NCBI GenBank assembly: GCA_021777755.1
Contig: JAJYDE010000018.1
Location: 1-64,000, forward strand
DNA length: 64,000 bases
DNA from: Deltaproteobacteria bacterium
GTDB lineage: Bacteria > Desulfobacterota > Syntrophobacteria > Syntrophobacterales > Syntrophobacteraceae
Direction of reading: 5' to 3'
Below the pieces are notes generated by a model, which worked only from the letters and a program-made list of their open reading frames with translations, was not told the DNA's origin and made no database searches. The position numbers and the translations under genes were made by a program. Below, piece by piece: positions 4,403-17,372 of the stretch (the stretch's first letter is position 1; each line of letters begins with the position of its first letter).

Positions 4403-5164
4403 ATGGCGAGAGTCCACCTGGTGTTGCAAGGCAAGGGCGGAGTGGGAAAAACCTTTGCCGCGTCTCTCATGGCGCAGTATTGCGTCGAGAAAAACGTCCC
4501 TGCCGTATGCGTTGATACCGATCCTGTCAACTCGACCTTCGCGCAATACCATTTGGGAGTGCTCTCAATCAAAATCATGAACGCCGGCAAAATAGACGGG
4601 CATCGCTTCGACGATTTGATCGAGATGTTGGTCAATAAAGACGGCGCCGACTTCATCATCGATAACGGCGCTGCCACGTTCGTACCGCTCACAAATTACA
4701 TGGCTGAAAACGGAGTGATCGAAACCCTTGTAGAGGCGGGAAAACCCGTTGTCGTCCACACCGTGTTGACCGGAGGCCAGGGGGCTACGGACACGCAAAC
4801 CGGTTTCGAGCGCCTCTTGATACAGTTTGGCGAAAAAGCGAGTTTGGTCGTGTGGCTGAACGAATTCTTCGGTCAAATCCTGGTTGACGGGAAAGATTTC
4901 GAGGAATCGCCCCTCTATCTCAACAACAGAGACAGAATCTTCGGGATCGTTCGCATCATCCGAAGGAGCGAGGATACCTTCGGCAGGGACATGGAAAAGA
5001 TGCTGAACTCGAAAATGACCTTTGGCGAAGCCATCGAATCGTCGAAGTTTCAGTTTATGGCGAAAAAACGCCTGAAGATGGTGCGGGATGATCTTTTCGC
5101 TCAAATAAGCGCCTTATTCGAAACGGATCAGGCTGTCATAGGTGGTGCCCGTGGAACACACTGA
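4403..5164 (+). CDS. traL: TraL-like ATPase, copy 1
   Basis: A 253-residue ParA/MinD-type ATPase matching RP4 TraL in length and order of motifs. The deviant Walker A is LQGKGGVGKTFAAS (about residues 8-21). The DTDPVNSTF and IIDNGAATFVPLTNYM blocks and VVWLNEFFG are typical of TraL. TraL belongs to the transfer region next to oriT; its exact role in RP4 is poorly known. It starts 12 bases after traK. Its end overlaps a small frame (5151-5246). A second TraL gene follows at 5398, which is unusual. Confidence 0.9.
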   Translation: MARVHLVLQGKGGVGKTFAASLMAQYCVEKNVPAVCVDTDPVNSTFAQYHLGVLSIKIMNAGKIDGHRFDDLIEMLVNKDGADFIIDNGAATFVPLTNYMAENGVIETLVEAGKPVVVHTVLTGGQGATDTQTGFERLLIQFGEKASLVVWLNEFFGQILVDGKDFEESPLYLNNRDRIFGIVRIIRRSEDTFGRDMEKMLNSKMTFGEAIESSKFQFMAKKRLKMVRDDLFAQISALFETDQAVIGGARGTH

Positions 5165-5246: not shown

Positions 5247-5401
5247 GCCAGAGCCGGCCTCGTCCATGGATGGTCGCCGGCCCTAACGGCGCGGGCAAAA
5301 GCACACTTGTGAACCGGTACACCGATTCGCTGCCCGGTATCCAAAGGAATCAACCGGGGCACGAAAAAAAGAAGCATCGAGCCAGGGGAGTCTCCAGATG
5401 A
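5243..5401 (+). pseudogene. truncated zeta-toxin-like kinase fragment
   Basis: A 52-codon frame from TTG 5243. It has the N-terminus of zeta-toxin-type kinases, RPWMVAGPNGAGKSTLVNRY, with a full P-loop (GPNGAGKST). Zeta toxins phosphorylate UDP-N-acetylglucosamine and are normally 200 residues or more. Here the sequence breaks off after about 30 residues and runs into an unrelated lysine/arginine-rich tail. Its stop overlaps the ATG of the second traL. The fragment therefore looks like the scar of a deletion or recombination that joined two tra segments. Confidence 0.7.
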
Positions 5402-6120
5402 CCGGGGCGCACATGATTTTGGGCGGCAAGGGCGGTGTGGGCAAAAGCATCGTCGCATCACTGATCGCTCAATACGAGGATGCCAAGGGCAATCGTCCCC
5501 TTTGCGTCGATATAGACCCTGCCGGCGGTACATTGAGCGGATTCCGGGGCTTGGATGTCGGCAGGCTGTCCGTGATGGAGGGGAAAAGTGTCAATCGGCG
5601 GAAGTTCGACGACTTGGTGGATTTCATGGCACAACGGCGCGGCAGGGAGATGGTGGTGGACTGTGGAGCATCGATATTCATTCCGCTGGTGCATTACATG
5701 GCCGAAACCAAATTTACTGAAAATCTCGCCGACATCGGCCGTCGGTTGATCCTGCATACCGTCATCGTCGGTGGGCAGGCGTTGGAACCAAGCCTGGCAG
5801 GATTAATCGAGATTGCCGACGAGTTTCCCGACCAAGCGACGCTGGCCGTGTGGCTCAATCCCTATTTCGGGCACATAGAGCGCAGAGGACGTGGATTCGA
5901 AGACCTGGACGAATACACGGACAGAAAAGACCGGGTTGCGGCCATCATCAGGATGCCGAAGATGTCGCAACTGTTTCGACGGGACATCGAGGAGATGCTG
6001 CGGCGCAAACTCACGTTCGCTGAAATAGCCATGACGCCAGGCTTCCTTGTAGCTTCAAAACAGCGTCTCGCCATAATAAAACGACGATTCTTCGAACTCA
6101 TGTTCGCGGGGGGCTTATGA
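5398..6120 (+). CDS. traL: TraL-like ATPase, copy 2
   Basis: A 240-residue paralogue of the upstream TraL. The motifs line up one for one: LGGKGGVGKSIVASLIAQY (Walker A), CVDIDPAGGT, VVDCGASIFIPLVHYM, LHTVIVGGQAL and LAVWLNPYFGHIE. The two copies differ at most other positions, so this is not a recent duplication. The ATG overlaps the stop of the zeta-like fragment, and the end overlaps traM by four bases, so this copy is the one coupled to traM. Two TraL ATPases might form a mixed complex; that is inference. Confidence 0.88.
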   Translation: MTGAHMILGGKGGVGKSIVASLIAQYEDAKGNRPLCVDIDPAGGTLSGFRGLDVGRLSVMEGKSVNRRKFDDLVDFMAQRRGREMVVDCGASIFIPLVHYMAETKFTENLADIGRRLILHTVIVGGQALEPSLAGLIEIADEFPDQATLAVWLNPYFGHIERRGRGFEDLDEYTDRKDRVAAIIRMPKMSQLFRRDIEEMLRRKLTFAEIAMTPGFLVASKQRLAIIKRRFFELMFAGGL

Positions 6121-6608: not shown

Positions 6609-6700
6609 AACTTTTTCGTTCCCGTCCGATCAGCGGTTGAGCGATCCCGATAGAAACAGCCCGATTCGTAATTACGGCGAATCGGGCTGTTTTTGTCGGG
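6609..6700 (+). repeat. 90-bp hairpin repeat, copy 1 (terminator-like)
   Basis: Nearly identical to 17276-17372. The 5' half is a conserved unstructured block (about 6611-6645). The 3' half is a hairpin: a perfect 15-bp stem (6654-6668 with 6678-6692, loop 9), extendable with wobble pairs to 6646-6700. The stem ends in TTTTT. It works on paper as a terminator for traKLM and stands just before the trb operon. Confidence 0.85.
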
Positions 6701-6752: not shown

Positions 6753-7715
6753 GTGAGCGAGGACAAAGCGCTTAGCGAAAAACAAAGACGAGATAGGAAA
6801 ATGCTCCACGATCAGCTCGGCCCCGTGATTCTTGAGGCGCTGGCCGATCCGATGACCGTGGAAGTGTGCCTCAATGCCGACGGGACACTGTGGCACGAGC
6901 GCCTGGGCGAGGAAATGCGTCGGATTGGCCGGATGGACAAAGCCCGCGCCGAAGGGGCGATGCGTACGATAGCCGGCTGCTGGGGAGTGGAACTGAGAGC
7001 GGACAAGCCGCTTTTGGAGGGCGAGTTGCCCTTCGACGGAAGCCGGTTCGCAGGGCAGTTCCCGCCGGTGGTGCCCGCGCCGACCTGGGCCATCCGCAAG
7101 AGAGCGAGTTCCGTTTTCAGCCTGGTCGAATACACCAAGGCCGGCATCATGAGCGCACGCCAGGCGGAAATCATACGCGAGGCGGTGCGCGAACGAAGGA
7201 ACATCCTGGTGGTCGGTGGCACGGGAAGCGGGAAGACCACCCTCGTGAACGCGATCATCAAAGAGATGGTGGAGTCGGGACCGGATGAACGGTTGGTGAT
7301 AATCGAGGATACGGGCGAAATCCAGTGCGCGGCGGCGAATTACGTGCAGTACCATACGTCCGCCGAGGTATCGATGACCCGGCTGCTGAGAACTACTCTT
7401 CGGATGCGGCCCGACCGCATAATAGTGGGAGAGGTGCGGGGGGCGGAGGCGCTCGATTTGCTCAAGGCCTGGAATACGGGGCATCCGGGCGGGGTCGCCA
7501 CGATCCACGCGGACAGCGCGGTAAGTGGACTGTCCCGAATGGCCGAAATGATAAGCGAGAACCCGGACCATCCTCGGCCCATCGAGCCGATGATAGCCAG
7601 GGCGGCAAACAGAGTCATCTACATAGAGAAGGAGGATCGAGGGCGCCGAGTACAGGAAATCGTGCAAGTGAAAGGATTCGGACACGGGGAATATCTCATC
7701 GAAAAAATGGAATAG
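6753..7715 (+). CDS. trbB: TrbB, VirB11-type secretion ATPase
   Basis: A 320-residue hexameric traffic ATPase of the conjugative type IV secretion system, acting at the inner-membrane face. The Walker A motif is [10 protein letters not shown] (about residues 154-163), followed by the Asp box VIIEDTGEI, the Walker B-like [12 protein letters not shown] and the His box [10 protein letters not shown]. The GTG at 6753 is preferred: GGAG lies eight bases upstream and the protein then starts [16 protein letters not shown]. The longer TTG start at 6693 would fall inside the hairpin repeat. It is the first gene of the trb operon. Confidence 0.95.
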
Positions 7716-7724
7716 GAGAAAACT

Positions 7725-8364: not shown

Positions 8365-10922
8365 TGCAACATTGGGCGGCGATTGCGACCATCGGCGCTC
8401 CGATCGTCACGGGCGTGATCGGAGCGGTCCTGACGTGCTTTCTGTACGGGCGGCTTCGCGAATCGGGAGAACATGCGAGGCTCGCGCGCCACCGATCAAA
8501 AAGCGAGGGCTTCATGGATCTGGTCCAGTGGGGATCGCTCATCGATGATGGAATCGTCATCAACAAAAACGGCTCCCTCATGGCCGGTTGGCGATACGTT
8601 GGCAAAGACGACGCGAGTTCTCTCGACGCAGAAAGAGAGATGGTTTCGGCGCGCCTGAACGAGGCCCTGCGCCCGTTGGGCGCGGGTTGGGCGATTCATG
8701 TCGATGCCATGAGGAAACCCGCGCCCGGATATCCGGAGCCTGGCTTGAGCCGTTTCGGGGACGCGATTTCACGCGGCCTGGACGAGGAGAGAAGACGTTG
8801 GTTCAACCGCCGGGGAACGATGTACGACGGTTATTACACGATTTGCGTCACATGGCTTCCACCGCTTGCCGTCCAGGAGAAATTCGTCGGGTTGATGTTC
8901 GAGGACGAAGGCGGAAAGCCCGACGCCAGAGGACGAATGATGGAACTCCTCGAACATTTCAAAAAGGAGGTCGCGAACCTGGAAACGCGCCTGTCGCTGG
9001 CTGTGAAGCTGACGAGGTTGAGCAGCTTCGAGGAGTTGGACGACGAGGGAAAGCCAAGAAAGTATGACGATCTGTTGAGACATCTGCAACAGTGCCTGAC
9101 CGGCAGGGACCATCTGGTGACGGTTCCGCGATCCGCGATGTGGATCGATGCGCTGCTCGGGGGCGAGGAGATGTGGGGAGGAGTGATACCACGCATCGGA
9201 CGCAAATTCGTTATGTGCGTCGCAATCGACGGATTTCCGGGGGAATCGCACCCCGGAATTCTGTCGTTTCTTACACAGATGCCGGTCGAGTGCCGGTGGT
9301 CCACGCGATATATCGCCATGGACCCGTGGGAGGCGCTGGGCCATGTGGTGAAATACCGCAAAATATGGAAACAGAAGGTCCGGGGGTTCCTGGACGTGAT
9401 GCTCAACAACCAGGGAGGCTCCGTAAACAGAGACGCGGCGGAGATGGTCGATGACGCGGAGGAAGCGGAAGCCGAAGTGCAGAGCGGGCTTGTGTCGGCC
9501 GGATATTACACGAGCGTCGTTATTCTCATGGACGAGGACCGAAAGACGCTCGAAGAGGCGGCGAACCGGGTGGCCAAGGCAATAATGAGCCTTGGATATG
9601 GCGCGCGGATAGAATCGGTAAACTCCCTTGACGCCTTTTTCGGCAGTCTTCCCGGGCACACCTCCGAAAACGTGCGCCGTCCGGTGATGAACACCCTGAA
9701 CCTTGCGGACATGCTTCCCGTCTCGACGATTTGGACGGGTGAAAAGACCGCGCCTTGCCCGATGTATGGATCGGGCAGACCTCCGCTCATGCAATGCGCG
9801 ACTACGGGATCGAGCCCGTTCTTTCTCAATTTGCATGTCGGTGACGTGGGACACACGATCGTGTTCGGGCCGACCGGGCGGGGAAAATCGACATTGCTTG
9901 CCACACTGGCCGCGCAGCTCCTGCGATATGACGGCATGAAGATATTCGCTTTCGACAAGGGGCTCTCCATGTACCCCTTGTGCGAGGCTGTGGGAGGCCG
10001 TCATTACGCGGTGGGCTCGGACGAATCGAACCTCGCGTTTTGTCCGCTCCAGTATCTGGACAGCCGTGAGGACCGCGCATGGGCGCTGGGCTGGATCGAT
10101 CGGCTCCTGCGGCTGAACGACACTGCGGCCAAACCGGCGGTGCTCAATGAAATAGCCCGCGCATTGGAGAGCATGCGGGAGACGGGCGCCCAAACGCTCA
10201 CGAATTTCGTGGGCATGGTACAGGACGCGGATGTGCGCGAGGCACTCAAGGCCTACACCGTGGAAGGCAGCATGGGGCATCTTCTCGACGCGGAAGAGGA
10301 TGGGCTGTCGCTTGCCGATTTCAACGTCTTCGAGGTCGAAGAGCTCATGAACCTCGGAGAAAGATACAGCCTGCCGGTGCTCCTGTATTTGTTCCGGCGA
10401 ATCGAGAAGGCTCTCAAGGGCGATCCGGCGGTCATATTCCTCGACGAGGCCTGGCTGCTCCTCGGCCACGACGTGTTTCGAGAAAAAATCCGCGAATGGC
10501 TCAAAGTCATGCGAAAAGCCAATTGCGCCGTGGTGATGGCAACTCAAAGTCTAAGCGACGCGGCCAGATCGGGCATACTCGATGTCATAAACGAAAATAC
10601 CGCGACCAAGATCTTTCTCCCCAACGAACAGGCAAGAGATGAGGACGCGAGCGTCCTCTATTCGCGGATGGGGCTCAACCGTCGTGAGATCGACATTCTC
10701 GCGGCCGCGGTGCCGAAGCGCGACTACTACTACGTTTCTTCCATGGGCCGCAGGCTGTTCAACCTGGCCCTGGGTCCGCTGGCGCTGAGCTTCGTCGGGA
10801 CGACCGACAAGAAGAGCATTGACGCGATCAGAACCCTCAAGGGAAAATTCGGCGAGGATTGGGCTCGCCAATGGTTGTCGATGAGGAATGTGGACACGGG
10901 ACTTTTGGAGGTCGAGCCGTGA
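8364..10922 (+). CDS. trbE: TrbE, VirB4-type secretion ATPase
   Basis: An 852-residue ATPase, the usual TrbE length. The N-terminus has one membrane helix (about 8-28). The Walker A motif GPTGRGKST lies at residues 502-510 and the Walker B VIFLDEAWLLL near 690-700; AVVMATQS and ENTATKIFLPN are typical downstream motifs. It powers pilus assembly and substrate transport in the conjugation channel. It is coupled by overlap to trbD before and to a membrane protein gene after it. Confidence 0.96.
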   Translation: MQHWAAIATIGAPIVTGVIGAVLTCFLYGRLRESGEHARLARHRSKSEGFMDLVQWGSLIDDGIVINKNGSLMAGWRYVGKDDASSLDAEREMVSARLNEALRPLGAGWAIHVDAMRKPAPGYPEPGLSRFGDAISRGLDEERRRWFNRRGTMYDGYYTICVTWLPPLAVQEKFVGLMFEDEGGKPDARGRMMELLEHFKKEVANLETRLSLAVKLTRLSSFEELDDEGKPRKYDDLLRHLQQCLTGRDHLVTVPRSAMWIDALLGGEEMWGGVIPRIGRKFVMCVAIDGFPGESHPGILSFLTQMPVECRWSTRYIAMDPWEALGHVVKYRKIWKQKVRGFLDVMLNNQGGSVNRDAAEMVDDAEEAEAEVQSGLVSAGYYTSVVILMDEDRKTLEEAANRVAKAIMSLGYGARIESVNSLDAFFGSLPGHTSENVRRPVMNTLNLADMLPVSTIWTGEKTAPCPMYGSGRPPLMQCATTGSSPFFLNLHVGDVGHTIVFGPTGRGKSTLLATLAAQLLRYDGMKIFAFDKGLSMYPLCEAVGGRHYAVGSDESNLAFCPLQYLDSREDRAWALGWIDRLLRLNDTAAKPAVLNEIARALESMRETGAQTLTNFVGMVQDADVREALKAYTVEGSMGHLLDAEEDGLSLADFNVFEVEELMNLGERYSLPVLLYLFRRIEKALKGDPAVIFLDEAWLLLGHDVFREKIREWLKVMRKANCAVVMATQSLSDAARSGILDVINENTATKIFLPNEQARDEDASVLYSRMGLNRREIDILAAAVPKRDYYYVSSMGRRLFNLALGPLALSFVGTTDKKSIDAIRTLKGKFGEDWARQWLSMRNVDTGLLEVEP

Positions 10923-12389: not shown

Positions 12390-13277
12390 ATGAAAAAAAT
12401 CGGTTCGATGTTGCTGATCGCGATGATGGTTCTTTCGGGAACGGCCTTCGGTAGCGATAAAAAGGCCAAGAAGCATCCCGAAAGTTGCGAAAACGAATTT
12501 CCGGGCAGGGACCACCGTCTCACCAAAGGCCAGGCGGCGGCTTTGCGCGCGGGAAGAAGATGGCGGCGCAATGTTCTGCCTCCCGTTGCCGCCCCCGCGG
12601 GGGCGGTCCGGTTCAGTTACGGGCTGGCTCCGGTGGACCTCGTTTGCGAACCGCTACAGATAACGGACGTCCAACTGGAAGCCGGAGAAAAAATCCAGAA
12701 CGTCAACGTCGGCGACCCTCGCTGGGACATAGAACCGGCCATGACGGGCGAAGGCGAGTCGGCTACACCGCATTTGATCATAAAGCCGCTGGACGTGGGG
12801 TTGGAAACGAGCCTCGTCATCACGACGAGCAGGCGAACCTATCATCTGCGCCTGCGCTCGGATCGCAAGGGATTCATGAGCTTTGTTACCTTCTTCTATC
12901 CGGAGGAGGAGGAAGCGAAGTGGAAGGCGATAGAGAAAAAGAACGAAGAACAAAAACAGAAGCTTCCGATACCCAAGGAGTACCTCGGAGATCTCGATTT
13001 CGGCTACGAGGTCAAGGGGAAAAGCCGCTGGAAACCTTTGCGGGTCTATAACGACGGCAAGAAAACGATAATCCAGATGCCAACCGTAATGAACGAAACA
13101 GAGGCACCGGCGCTTCTTATTTTGCGAGGCGGAAAGGAAACGCTTGCGAATTACCGTATACAGCAGGACCGCTACATAGTTGACACAGTATTCGACAAAG
13201 CGGTGCTGGTCGCCGGAACCGGGTGGCATCAGGAAAAAATCACAATTATACGCACCGATGCGGGGACGAGGCGATGA
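12390..13277 (+). CDS. trbG: TrbG, VirB9-like channel protein
   Basis: A 295-residue periplasmic protein with a signal peptide (about residues 1-20, cleavage near GTAFGS). Features of VirB9/TrbG are the N-terminal FSYGLAPVDLVCEPLQITDVQLEAGEKI region, the HLIIKP and YHLRLRSD strands, and a C-terminal FDKAVLVAGTGWHQEKITI part that contacts VirB7/VirB10 in relatives. Start ATG 12390 has GGAG upstream; GTG 12378 is an alternative. The stop overlaps trbI. No trbH lipoprotein gene follows, unlike RP4. Confidence 0.93.
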   Translation: MKKIGSMLLIAMMVLSGTAFGSDKKAKKHPESCENEFPGRDHRLTKGQAAALRAGRRWRRNVLPPVAAPAGAVRFSYGLAPVDLVCEPLQITDVQLEAGEKIQNVNVGDPRWDIEPAMTGEGESATPHLIIKPLDVGLETSLVITTSRRTYHLRLRSDRKGFMSFVTFFYPEEEEAKWKAIEKKNEEQKQKLPIPKEYLGDLDFGYEVKGKSRWKPLRVYNDGKKTIIQMPTVMNETEAPALLILRGGKETLANYRIQQDRYIVDTVFDKAVLVAGTGWHQEKITIIRTDAGTRR

Positions 13278-14575
13278 GGAAAACGGGCATGTCGCCGGAC
13301 GACTCGCCGGTAGACTGGGGGCGCGGTGGAATTCGACGCCTGAATAACGTTCCCGTCTGGCTGATATTTGGCGTAATCGTTATCGTTTTCGCCGTGGCCT
13401 TCTTCGCGGCGGAAAATCTGAAGCCGAAACCGAAAGGCAAGGCCGCGCAAAGCTCGGCGACCGAGGCGAACGGGAAGGAGAGGCTCAAGAGCATGTCCGC
13501 TCCCACCGGGCGGCTCACGCCTCCGGCTCCGACACCGGCGCAGCCTTCGGCGCCGGCGACGGTGAATCATCAGGTTGCAAGCGGTGGAACCGGATCGTAT
13601 CAGCCCGCAACGCCGCCTCCCCCATCCAAGGAGCAATTGCAAGAGGAAGCGCGCGAAAAAGCCCGGCGGGCGGAGTTCGCGGAGGCAGTCCACGCGAAAA
13701 CGGCCGTCTCCCTCTCCGGGGTCGGAAGCGGAGCGCCGGCGTCATCCCCGCTTGCCGCGAACCTTGCAATACCTCAAGCGTCCGGAGGATCGGAGGTCGA
13801 TCGGACTCTTGCCCAACTGCGAAAACGCATCGACGGGTTGCAACAAGGATCGTCCAAACCGGACCTCGCGGCCAGTCTCAAGACGTTCGATGCGGCTCCG
13901 AGCAAAGACAGGTGGAAACTCGCGTCCAAGGTACAGACGCCCGGCCCGTACGAATTGCGAGCAGGATCGGTGATACCGGCCATTATGGTATCGGGCATCA
14001 ATTCGGATCTTCCCGGGGAAATCCTGGCCCAGGTGAGCCAGGATGTGTACGACACGGCGACTGGCCGATATCTGCTGATTCCGCAGGGCTCTCGCCTGGT
14101 GGGATCTTATTCGGCCAATATCGGATACGGGCAGGAACGGATATTCGTGGTGTGGGAGCGCATCGTCTTTCCCGACGGCCGCGCCCTGGACATAGGCGCA
14201 ATGCCCGCTTCGGATGGAGCGGGCTACGGAGGGATGCACGATATGGTCAACAACCACTACCTGCGCACCTTCGGGTCCGCGCTCCTCATGTCCGTGGTGG
14301 TCGCGGCGATGGAATACAGCCAGGGGCCGAGCAATTTTACAGGAGGGGCAAGTTTGAATCAGCAGCAGGCTCAGAGCGCGGGAAGCTATCTCAGCCAGGC
14401 CCTCGGCCAGGAGATGGGACAAGCCATGTCGCAAATGATGGAAAAGAACCTGAATGTCAGCCCCACGCTCGAAATCAGGCCCGGATACCGCCTGAACGTC
14501 ATGGCGGTAAAGGACCTGAATTTCGGATCGCCGTACAGGTCTTTCGATTATGACGTCGCCGGAGGGCGGAGATGA
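13274..14575 (+). CDS. trbI: TrbI, VirB10-like channel protein
   Basis: A 433-residue protein that spans the envelope. One N-terminal membrane helix (about 25-45, VWLIFGVIVIVFAVAFF) is followed by a Pro/Ala-rich linker and the VirB10 C-terminal domain with AGSVIPAIMVSGINSDLPGE, IPQGSRLVGSY, VWERIVFPDGRAL and RPGYRLNVMAVKDL. It forms the outer-membrane core with TrbG. The start overlaps the trbG stop. The next gene on the left arm of the inverted repeat lies on the other strand. Confidence 0.95.
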   Translation: MRKTGMSPDDSPVDWGRGGIRRLNNVPVWLIFGVIVIVFAVAFFAAENLKPKPKGKAAQSSATEANGKERLKSMSAPTGRLTPPAPTPAQPSAPATVNHQVASGGTGSYQPATPPPPSKEQLQEEAREKARRAEFAEAVHAKTAVSLSGVGSGAPASSPLAANLAIPQASGGSEVDRTLAQLRKRIDGLQQGSSKPDLAASLKTFDAAPSKDRWKLASKVQTPGPYELRAGSVIPAIMVSGINSDLPGEILAQVSQDVYDTATGRYLLIPQGSRLVGSYSANIGYGQERIFVVWERIVFPDGRALDIGAMPASDGAGYGGMHDMVNNHYLRTFGSALLMSVVVAAMEYSQGPSNFTGGASLNQQQAQSAGSYLSQALGQEMGQAMSQMMEKNLNVSPTLEIRPGYRLNVMAVKDLNFGSPYRSFDYDVAGGRR

Positions 14576-14584
14576 AAATGGAGA

Positions 14585-14634
14585 TCAATCCCTGTAACCG
14601 CTCTCACCCAAAAGTGACGGGTCGGTTTTTTCCA
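14585..14634. repeat. 50-bp inverted repeat, left arm
   Basis: Matches the reverse complement of 15700-15749 at 48 of 50 positions. It encodes the last 16 residues of the minus-strand lipoprotein gene and its stop. The right arm encodes the same peptide at the end of TrbJ. The repeats bracket a 1.07-kb unit (trbK-like gene and trbJ, convergent outward). Confidence 0.95.
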
Positions 14635-14854
14635 ACCGGGCAGCGTTCAAATCCGCCTGGTGTTCGCGCCACGCCTTGTTCAACTCTTGTTGGTGCAGCG
14701 ATGCGGGATGCGGATACGGTAGGGACTTTCCGTTCAGCGCCCTGGCGTCTTCCTTCGCTTGTTGTTCCTTTCCGTGTCCGCATCCGGTGCATATGGATAC
14801 CGCGAATAAAGAGACAGCGAACAACGCGAACAACACCAATTTTTTCATGTTCAT
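14585..14854 (-). CDS. TrbK-like lipoprotein (candidate entry-exclusion protein)
   Basis: An 89-residue protein on the strand opposite to all other trb genes. The N-terminus is a signal peptide, MNMKKLVLFALFAVSLFAVS, then CTGCG with a probable lipid-attachment Cys near residue 25, although the -3 position is not a typical lipobox residue. The mature part is short and charged. RP4 has its entry-exclusion lipoprotein TrbK between trbJ and trbL, and this gene would fall exactly there if the segment between the 50-bp repeats were inverted. Its last 15 residues (KTDPSLLGESGYRD and neighbours) are shared with TrbJ. AGGAG lies six bases before the ATG at 14854. Confidence 0.65.
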   Translation of the reverse strand: MNMKKLVLFALFAVSLFAVSICTGCGHGKEQQAKEDARALNGKSLPYPHPASLHQQELNKAWREHQADLNAARLEKTDPSLLGESGYRD

Positions 14855-14981
14855 ATCCTGCTCCTGTGGATGGTGGTCGATTACGACGCATGCATCAATC
14901 GAGGTACGGATCGTACTCCAAGGTGTTTTTGCGTGTCAACAACCAAACAAATCCGAATCGCGAAGGCAAAGGAGAGAGCGA

Positions 14982-15749
14982 ATGAAACGAATATTTGTTA
15001 TTTCGGCGTGTGTCTGCGTCTGCCTTTGCGGCAGTCTCCCCGTGCGGGCGCAGTGGGCTACGGAGCACACTCAAATCCTCAATCACATCGAACTCGTAAC
15101 GCAATACGCCAGGCAGTTGCAACAGTACGCCGCCCAGTTGCGACAACTCGAAACGCAAATCCAGCAGTATGAGAACATGGTTACCAATACCATGGCTCCC
15201 TACACCTATGTATGGGACCAGGTCCGGCAGACGATGGCCCGGGTGATGGGTGTCTATCAGCAAATCCAGCAGTTCGAAAACATGAACGGGGGAAGTCTGG
15301 AAGGGTATCTGTCGAAGTTCGCCGATGCGACCACCTACGCAAACAATCCGTGCTTCGGACCTGGCGGATGTACGCAGGCGCAGCTCGACGCCCTGGCGAA
15401 GTCGCGCAATCTCGGGTCGAGCTCGCAATTACTCGCCAACAATGCGCTGTTCCAGTCGATCAAACAGGCCCAGACGCAGATTCAGCAGGATGCTGCGACG
15501 GTCAAGCTGGATCAGCAGCAGGCTCAGAGCGCCACGGGCCGCATGCAGGCGATTCAGGCCGGAAATCAATTGGCCGGCGAGCAGGCCATGCAGCTGCTCC
15601 AAATACGGGCGCTACTGGTCGCCCAGGCGCAGGCCCAGGGGGCCAAGCTGCAAAACGATGCCAACACCGAGGCGCAGAAGGATGCGGGAGATGCGCAACT
15701 GGAAAGAACCGACCCGTCACTTTTGGGTGAGAGCGGTTACAGGGACTGA
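14982..15749 (+). CDS. trbJ: TrbJ, VirB5-like pilus-associated protein
   Basis: A 255-residue exported protein. The signal peptide ends near LPVRAQ (residues 1-24). The mature protein is a long helical, Gln-rich coiled coil (QYARQLQQYAAQLRQLETQI, then TMARVMGVYQQIQ) with the TrbJ-like NPCFGPGGCTQAQ loop near residues 122-134. VirB5/TrbJ proteins sit at the pilus tip or base. AAGGAGAG precedes the ATG. The C-terminal ERTDPSLLGESGYRD lies inside the right arm of the 50-bp inverted repeat and is also found at the end of the divergent lipoprotein. Confidence 0.9.
   Translation: MKRIFVISACVCVCLCGSLPVRAQWATEHTQILNHIELVTQYARQLQQYAAQLRQLETQIQQYENMVTNTMAPYTYVWDQVRQTMARVMGVYQQIQQFENMNGGSLEGYLSKFADATTYANNPCFGPGGCTQAQLDALAKSRNLGSSSQLLANNALFQSIKQAQTQIQQDAATVKLDQQQAQSATGRMQAIQAGNQLAGEQAMQLLQIRALLVAQAQAQGAKLQNDANTEAQKDAGDAQLERTDPSLLGESGYRD
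15700..15749. repeat. 50-bp inverted repeat, right arm
   Basis: Forms the C-terminal coding end of trbJ and pairs with 14585-14634 (48 of 50). Only positions 7 and 47 differ. It ends with the trbJ stop codon, one base before the trbL start. Confidence 0.95.
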
Positions 15750-15750
15750 C

Positions 15751-16851
15751 ATGAAACGATTCAGAGTTTTTGCGGTCATGTTTTTCGGGATGGCATTTTT
15801 TTTCATTTTTTTCAACACGGCATCGGCCGCCCCGGCATCCGACGTGTTCCATACCATCCTCGCGAAATACCAGACCATCATGACCGGGTGGCTGTCGGTC
15901 ATCCGGTCCGGGGCGATGCGGCTGTTTTGGACGCTTGCAACCATCGGCCTCGTCTGGAACGGCGCGGATTTGATAATCAAACGGGGCGAGGTGGGAGATT
16001 TCTTCGCCATGTTCATGAAGTGGTTGGTCGTTACGGGCTTCTTTTGGTGGCTTTTGTTCAACAGTGTTGCGATAAGCCAGGCCGTCGTGGACGGGCTGAA
16101 ACAAATGGCCGGATTGGCGTCGGGAACGTCCGCGAACGTCGATATGGGACAACTCGTGGAAAACGGTTACACGATGTTCTCGAACGCCATCGATCGCATG
16201 TCGGCCATGCATCCCGTAACAGATCTCCTTTCCATCGTCCTCGCGCTCGCCGCGTTGGCGCTCCAAGCGCTCATGGCCGTGGATTACCTTATCGGCATGA
16301 CCAAGGCGTTCATGATGGAGTACGCGGGACTCGTCATTTTGGGGTTCGGGGGGTGCGACTGGACCAGGGATGTGGCGAAAAAATATTTTTGGGAGGTGAT
16401 ATCGCTCGGACTCAATCTGTTCAGCCTGATACTGCTCATCTCCGTGGCGACAACGATCATGCAGGGCTACAACGATCAAATACAACCCGGTATGACATAC
16501 CAGCAAATGGTCGCGTATATTCTGGCCTTGTTCATTTTGTACAAGCTCGTACACCAAGTTCCTCCGATGCTCGGCGGCCTGGTCGGATCGGCGGGCGGCG
16601 CGGGCGGTATGAGCACGGCGGTGTTCGCGGGAATGGTGGCCTCGATGGTGGTCGCCTCGCTTGCCAGCGGCGGACTTGCCGTAGCGGGTAAAGGGGTAAA
16701 GAAGCTCGGCAATCTCGCGGGATTGGGAGGCGGCGGGGGTGCGGGTGGCGACTCCGGAGGGAAGGGTGACGCCGGCGGAGAAAAAGAGAAGAAGTCGGCC
16801 CTGCCCGATCCGCCGAAGTTCGATGTCAACAGCCTCGGGGGCAAGGAATAA
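15751..16851 (+). CDS. trbL: TrbL, VirB6-like membrane channel protein
   Basis: A 366-residue polytopic inner-membrane protein. A signal-like N-terminus (to about 28) is followed by at least five further hydrophobic helices, among them LFWTLATIGLVWNGADLII, FVTGFFWWLLF-like and LLSIVLALAALALQALM segments. The Gly-rich hydrophilic tail (about 325-366) is typical of TrbL. It forms part of the inner-membrane pore of the conjugation channel. The ATG begins two bases after the trbJ stop, directly past the inverted repeat. Confidence 0.93.
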   Translation: MKRFRVFAVMFFGMAFFFIFFNTASAAPASDVFHTILAKYQTIMTGWLSVIRSGAMRLFWTLATIGLVWNGADLIIKRGEVGDFFAMFMKWLVVTGFFWWLLFNSVAISQAVVDGLKQMAGLASGTSANVDMGQLVENGYTMFSNAIDRMSAMHPVTDLLSIVLALAALALQALMAVDYLIGMTKAFMMEYAGLVILGFGGCDWTRDVAKKYFWEVISLGLNLFSLILLISVATTIMQGYNDQIQPGMTYQQMVAYILALFILYKLVHQVPPMLGGLVGSAGGAGGMSTAVFAGMVASMVVASLASGGLAVAGKGVKKLGNLAGLGGGGGAGGDSGGKGDAGGEKEKKSALPDPPKFDVNSLGGKE

Positions 16852-17275: not shown

Positions 17276-17372
17276 CAACCTTTTCGTTCCCGCCTGATCA
17301 GCGGTTGAGCGAACCCGACAGCACAAACAGCCCGATTCGTAATTACGGCGAATCGGGCTGTTTGTGTCGGGA
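17276..17372 (+). repeat. 90-bp hairpin repeat, copy 2 (terminator-like)
   Basis: Copy of 6609-6700. The conserved 5' block is at 17279-17313. The hairpin has a perfect 18-bp stem (17322-17339 with 17349-17366, the same 9-nt loop) and an outer CCCGAC/GTCGGG pair. Base changes relative to copy 1 keep the pairing, which argues that the RNA or cruciform structure matters. It lies 30 bases before the traC-like gene, at the border of two operons. Confidence 0.85.

Follow-up and report, generated by a model that had tools for sequence, protein, structure and literature searches.

A small secreted protein encoded in the trb conjugation gene cluster of a Syntrophobacteraceae bacterium ends in a near-exact copy of the C-terminus of TrbJ, the VirB5-family protein encoded beside it. 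The stretch of DNA analyzed (hereafter the window; 64,000 nt of contig JAJYDE010000018.1, with all window coordinates given as positions in it) carries a trb operon resembling those of incompatibility group P (IncP) plasmids, and the gene for the small protein, P0001, lies antisense to this operon, between trbI and trbJ. The same pairing, with different peptides, is present in many elements with mating-pair formation systems of type T (MPF-T), where the two tails co-vary beyond relatedness and the peptide has been kept after the DNA diverged. On the strength of these sequence comparisons, P0001 is probably the element's entry-exclusion protein, an analogue of TrbK that would present a copy of the TrbJ tail for self-recognition. 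With somewhat less confidence, we lean towards a general model in which MPF-T entry exclusion operates by peptide mimicry, the hypervariable TrbJ/VirB5 tail serving as an identity tag that the exclusion protein copies in order to jam machines of the same kind.

In the window, the copied tail takes the form of an inverted DNA repeat. A previous sequence-only reading had described two 50-bp inverted arms that constitute the coding ends of a minus-strand lipoprotein gene and of the plus-strand trbJ, and both repeat search and alignment agree with this description: the arms are identical at 48 of 50 positions and each ends exactly at a stop codon (Table 1). The C-terminal peptide common to both proteins comprises 16 residues with a single K/R difference (...ARLEKTDPSLLGESGYRD in P0001 and ...AQLERTDPSLLGESGYRD in TrbJ), which corresponds to one of the DNA mismatches, the other being silent. 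A repeat finder extends the arms to 75 nt at 81%; beyond the 50 nt, similarity is approximately at background. Only three inverted pairs of at least 35 nt occur in the whole 64 kb, of which this is the only one at trbJ, and no further copy of the arm was detected in the genome or in viral contigs.

To place this pair in a wider setting, loci encoding TrbJ were collected from plasmids, from named genomes and from the phylum of the window. At most of them, the small protein encoded between trbJ and trbL has a C-terminus resembling that of the same element's TrbJ, the peptides differing among elements and the TrbJ C-terminus being hypervariable; this pattern spans IncP, Ti-type and other trb loci. 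For instance, TrbJ and TrbK end in ...DIRGGQTMEPRW and ...DVRGGQEMKPRW in pTiC58, in ...GSYRASSGQTW and ...GDFKSSSGKTY in EbN1, and in ...DMGEPTDRSENRGF and ...DMGEPTDRSKNKGF in locus L090. Tails of TrbJ and the small protein pair in the same manner in Pseudomonas (APTQAPKNWLDMNR and QPTEQPKNWLELN), Thauera (DMGSPINRSKAKGY and DMGGPTDRQKSKGY), Labrenzia (PVTGGKEMEVDF and PTTGGKEMSVDF), Nitrosomonas (RIRNSKDTGF and RIRNSKDAGF) and locus L089 (EPVDRSRSKEY and GPVDRSKSKEY), and several of the tail-matching small proteins carry no annotation other than "hypothetical". A plasmid of Neisseria gonorrhoeae (L127) has, between trbJ and trbL at about 2136-2291, a small lipoprotein open reading frame (ORF) that is missing from the gene table, with the tail VLKRPYKRKE compared with ILKHPYRRGQ in TrbJ. 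This ORF was earlier named TrbK for its place, size and lipoprotein signal, its mature part being unlike known TrbK (PMC2848598). The likeness is also visible to a family model, as the last 25 positions of an NCBIfam TrbJ model match the pTiC58 TrbK at an E-value of 0.0028.

The match is specific to cognate pairs. In a set of 30 dissimilar TrbK proteins, TrbJ tails scored on average 53.9 in local comparison with the cognate protein and 23.1 with non-cognate ones, a result that 0 of 10,000 permutations reached. When mature TrbK was compared with full-length TrbJ, its best local match fell at the TrbJ C-terminal end in 29 of 30 cases, the exception being L082, a short ORF. An annotation-free test, which took in all ORFs up to 1.5 kb away from each of 44 dissimilar TrbJ genes, gave an own score of 47.1 compared with 25.1 under permutation (permutation maximum 30.8), and in 23 of 44 cases the own tail came first; the 16-residue tail of P0001 placed the window TrbJ first among the 44 TrbJ tails. 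Furthermore, similarity between TrbJ tails predicts similarity between TrbK tails when TrbJ core and TrbK body are controlled for (partial Mantel r 0.75, p 0.0005, 60 pairs), and still does when TrbI is also taken into account as an indicator of relatedness (r 0.69, 24 pairs). A case in point is the pair L090 and L106, whose TrbJ cores are near-identical and whose TrbJ tails differ, with the TrbK tails differing in the same way. Overall, the last 15 residues form the least conserved block in 32 aligned TrbJ proteins (0.26, compared with 0.86 for the best core block).

Codon choice indicates how the likeness has aged. With the window and a same-genus Syntrophobacteraceae relative (G003, a metagenome-assembled genome) left out, identical tail residues use the same codon at 165 of 333 positions, where 153 are expected from local usage. 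Because codons are randomized in most pairs while the peptides still match, the peptide has been maintained in these elements although the DNA likeness is gone. The tails of the window (same codon at 15 of 18, 7.1 expected) and of G003 (12 of 16, 6.9 expected) are recent DNA-level copies, which accounts for the striking inverted DNA repeat in the former. Recent copying of this kind is compatible with a neutral history in which the 3' ends of neighboring genes are occasionally duplicated, leaving look-alike tails without function. This explanation is largely refuted, and we accord it hardly any credence, as elsewhere the peptides match despite randomized codons, elements with near-identical cores have switched both tails jointly, and nearly all pairs have their best match at the C-terminus.

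The inverted arrangement had itself been taken as the sign of an invertible segment, in which recombination at the arms would flip trbJ and the lipoprotein gene between transfer-ready and exclusion states. The near-identity of the inverted arms, and the fact that both frames would stay open in either orientation, are in keeping with such a switch, but the relatives of the window are not. In G003 (locus L004), whose TrbJ is 48% identical to that of the window, the gene order is trbI-trbJ-small lipoprotein-trbL on one strand, with the lipoprotein in the standard trbK place, and TrbJ and the lipoprotein have the exact peptide SSFPDTTDESGWSFE in common, which differs from the window's TDPSLLGESGYRD and is a direct repeat at the DNA level; a tblastn search of plasmids with the G003 lipoprotein gave no match. 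At two loci from other Desulfobacterota (L015 and L016), the matching small gene is convergent on trbJ with overlapping stop codons; the two 3' ends agree at 57-59 of 90 nt, and there is no intervening segment that could invert. Given the direct repeat in one relative and the convergent pairs in the others, the orientation of the DNA is free while the protein match is kept, and since peptides match in most elements while codons are no longer alike, the tail likeness is not about DNA recombination. The arms, moreover, stop exactly at the stop codons, and the likeness recurs between proteins in different elements. The lack of a recombinase gene noted for the window extends to the entire contig, which yielded no match to the tyrosine (PF00589) or serine (PF00239) recombinase families. 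An inversion need not even silence trbJ, because the divergent pair would take its own upstream region along. Arrangements do differ among the related elements, but they do so between different genes and elements. Taken together, a DNA switch is not supported, and we regard it as highly improbable; the match is one between proteins, and rare homologous inversion may take place at the window's arms.

Two further features of the collected loci deserve mention in their own right. The overlap of the trbJ and small-gene stops on opposite strands in L015 and L016 gives their 3' ends a long, imperfectly palindromic sequence. Locus L150 (G420:C19) encodes two TrbK-like proteins (7449-7721 and 9230-9490) that flank one trbJ, one of them with a near-identical tail and the other with a related but different one; judging from these sequences, the element could carry two exclusion specificities.

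VirB5 proteins are located on VirB6 at the base of the conjugation machine and later at the pilus tip, and exclusion lipoproteins act in the recipient. We propose that the lipoprotein in the recipient membrane would display its copy of the TrbJ tail into the periplasm; on the incoming machine, TrbJ would be the VirB5-type subunit present at base and tip. During transfer the incoming TrbJ tail would have to dock, the most likely sites being TrbL/VirB6, adjacent TrbJ subunits or a factor of the recipient. The TrbK tail would either occupy this docking site or pair with TrbJ, so that only machines with the same tail would be blocked. On this simplest interpretation, it is the tail itself that would be recognized. 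In this account, a recent duplication or gene conversion between trbJ and the antisense gene copied the tail at the DNA level in the window and thereby generated the inverted repeat. We name no docking partner because co-variation with the TrbJ tail is weak for TrbL (about 0.3) and, for TrbI, drops from 0.7 to 0.33 once the TrbK tail is controlled for.

Published genetic data agree with this proposal. C-terminal truncation of the TrbK of pKPC_UVA01 abolishes exclusion (PMC8923210). When single genes (the tra2 genes tested and traF) were supplied in the recipient, only trbJ and trbK gave protection against the RP4 machine; none came from R388 or R6K resident in the recipient (PMC11045733). The two protecting genes are those that encode the tail-sharing proteins. 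The same tail-matching data (cognate scores, annotation-free test and partial Mantel) would also arise if the tail were a common handling signal, bound on both TrbJ and TrbK by the same element-encoded assembly factor, protease or chaperone, with exclusion independent of the tail. Both proteins are secreted and belong to one operon, and an element-specific tail would co-vary with an element-specific factor. We nevertheless consider a handling signal unlikely: other secreted Trb proteins should then carry it as well, and no other ORF in the window, or in 50 kb of pTiC58, matched the TrbK tail comparably. In addition, transfer does not require trbK, and the recipient-protection phenotypes of trbJ and trbK are exactly the same (PMC8923210, PMC11045733).

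Several observations weigh against peptide mimicry. The IncP-1 alpha pair (GSYRASPSKTW and GGFKPSEKKEW), for which pBS228 with its IncP-alpha-type TrbK of the same length as RP4's was used in place of RP4, is only moderately alike (z 2.6), and tail matches in IncN (R46) and IncW (R388) are weak and alone not convincing. In one Shewanella locus, trbL follows trbJ without an intervening gene, one Vibrio gene has a tail without a match to TrbJ, and no matching tail was found within stretches of 4-17 kb near several Desulfobacterota trbJ genes (the ...DPF group, L012, L018, L026, L027). Finally, the TrbK of pKPC_UVA01 is needed in the donor too, and its exclusion of R751 and R46 is unidirectional (PMC8923210), neither of which is predicted by simple decoy logic.

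Comparison with known exclusion systems places the mimicry model in context. TrbK of IncP (RP4, R751, pBS228) and Ti-type plasmids is, as proposed for P0001, a small membrane-anchored exclusion protein encoded next to trbJ and trbL with a tail like that of its cognate TrbJ; the window protein differs in lacking a TrbK family match, in the position of its gene, which lies upstream of trbJ on the opposite strand, and in having a tail that is a near-exact DNA copy. The portions of the IncP and Ti TrbK-TrbJ literature available to us make no mention of tail matching, and no description of it was found in the literature searched, although the original RP4 TrbK study (Haase 1996) lies outside that search and an earlier mention is therefore possible. 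EexN of IncN (R46/pKM101) and IncW (R388) is likewise a lipoprotein encoded between virB5-like and virB6-like genes, and its family shows a clear tail match at loci L117, L119 and L121, unlike R46 and R388 themselves. In TraS-TraG of F, Eex-TraG of SXT and ExcA-TraY of IncI, a recipient exclusion protein also recognizes a donor machine protein in a cognate manner (PMC11493245). The donor target in these systems is, however, TraG (a VirB6 homologue) or TraY. To our knowledge, none of the three involves a tail copy of a donor subunit. Sfx of IncC is thought to interfere with the donor adhesin TraN, which involves other proteins and is not described as peptide mimicry (PMC12624023).

The recurrence of matched pairing across many conjugative plasmids suggests how an element recognizes and keeps out its own kind. 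A copied TrbJ/VirB5 tail would name the donor part recognized in exclusion, would explain why both recipient-made trbJ and trbK protect (PMC11045733), and would offer a simple way to predict which elements exclude which others. If the model is true, comparing tails would allow exclusion groups to be predicted, and exclusion genes without annotation to be located, from sequence, and the short peptide site might serve to block conjugation.

Turning to the individual genes of the window, the proposal that P0001 is a TrbK-like exclusion lipoprotein holds in part. Its proposed role in exclusion is supported by the tail match to TrbJ, whereas P0001 matches neither the TrbK models (TIGR04359 and TIGR04361) nor any other family model in NCBIfam or Pfam, and its lipobox (CTGC), although accompanied by a signal peptide and the Cys, is atypical at -3. 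The label "TrbK-like" is therefore based on size, setting and tail. The region between the divergent start codons contains one promoter-like match for the lipoprotein gene, at a frequency no higher than chance. The assignment of trbJ follows from a TIGR02780 score above cut-off, with trbI upstream and trbL downstream. As profile comparison of TrbJ with VirB5 matched the N-terminal region alone, their homology rests on Pfam (sub-threshold) and the literature (PMC12624023). In an AlphaFold model of TrbJ of low confidence (predicted local distance difference test score 59.7), the tail comes after the last long helix (184-242), and PDB searches with an IncP TrbK (pAKD4) and with the TrbJ profile returned no true relative.

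Table 1. Features of the trbI-trbL region, in window positions
Feature	Position	Strand	Remarks
trbI (VirB10 family)	13223..14575	+	Pfam TrbI 205.8 bits; end 10 nt from stop of lipoprotein gene
Arm 1	14585..14634	-	Final 16 codons and stop of lipoprotein gene; 48/50 inverted match to arm 2
P0001 (89 aa), small, secreted and probably anchored by lipid; TrbK analogue proposed to act in exclusion	14585..14854	- (opposite to trb operon)	Ribosome site AGGAG (good); signal peptide; C-terminus copying TrbJ
Region between divergent start codons	14855..14981		127 bp
trbJ (VirB5 family), P0002, 255 aa	14982..15749	+	TIGR02780 134.8 bits, cut-off 100.55; conserved core, hypervariable last 15 residues
Arm 2	15700..15749	+	Final 16 codons and stop of trbJ; TrbJ tail that is copied
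trbL (VirB6 family)	15751..16851	+	TIGR02783 170.4 bits, cut-off 128.85; directly 3' of trbJ, no trbK between

The trb element is probably integrated, because the contig continues into cobalamin-biosynthesis genes. A 51-nt palindromic element (CCCGATTCGTAATTACGGCGAATCGGG) forms an 80% inverted pair flanking the trb region (6645-6695 and 17322-17372) and may be an intergenic repeat of the repetitive extragenic palindrome (REP) type or a regulatory one, and a 39-nt inverted repeat (2696-2734 and 2924-2962; 92% matched, 189 nt between) lies in a region without a clear gene. Outside the window, the EexN lipoprotein of a Xanthomonas albilineans plasmid (L120, 2151-2489) contains an internal repeat (ADHSINITPNR and ADHSIDITPKR), and this protein resembles the VirB5 tail only weakly. 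Two adjoining genes for ParA/StbB-like ATPases in the window (4403-5164 and 5398-6120) look like an old tandem duplication.
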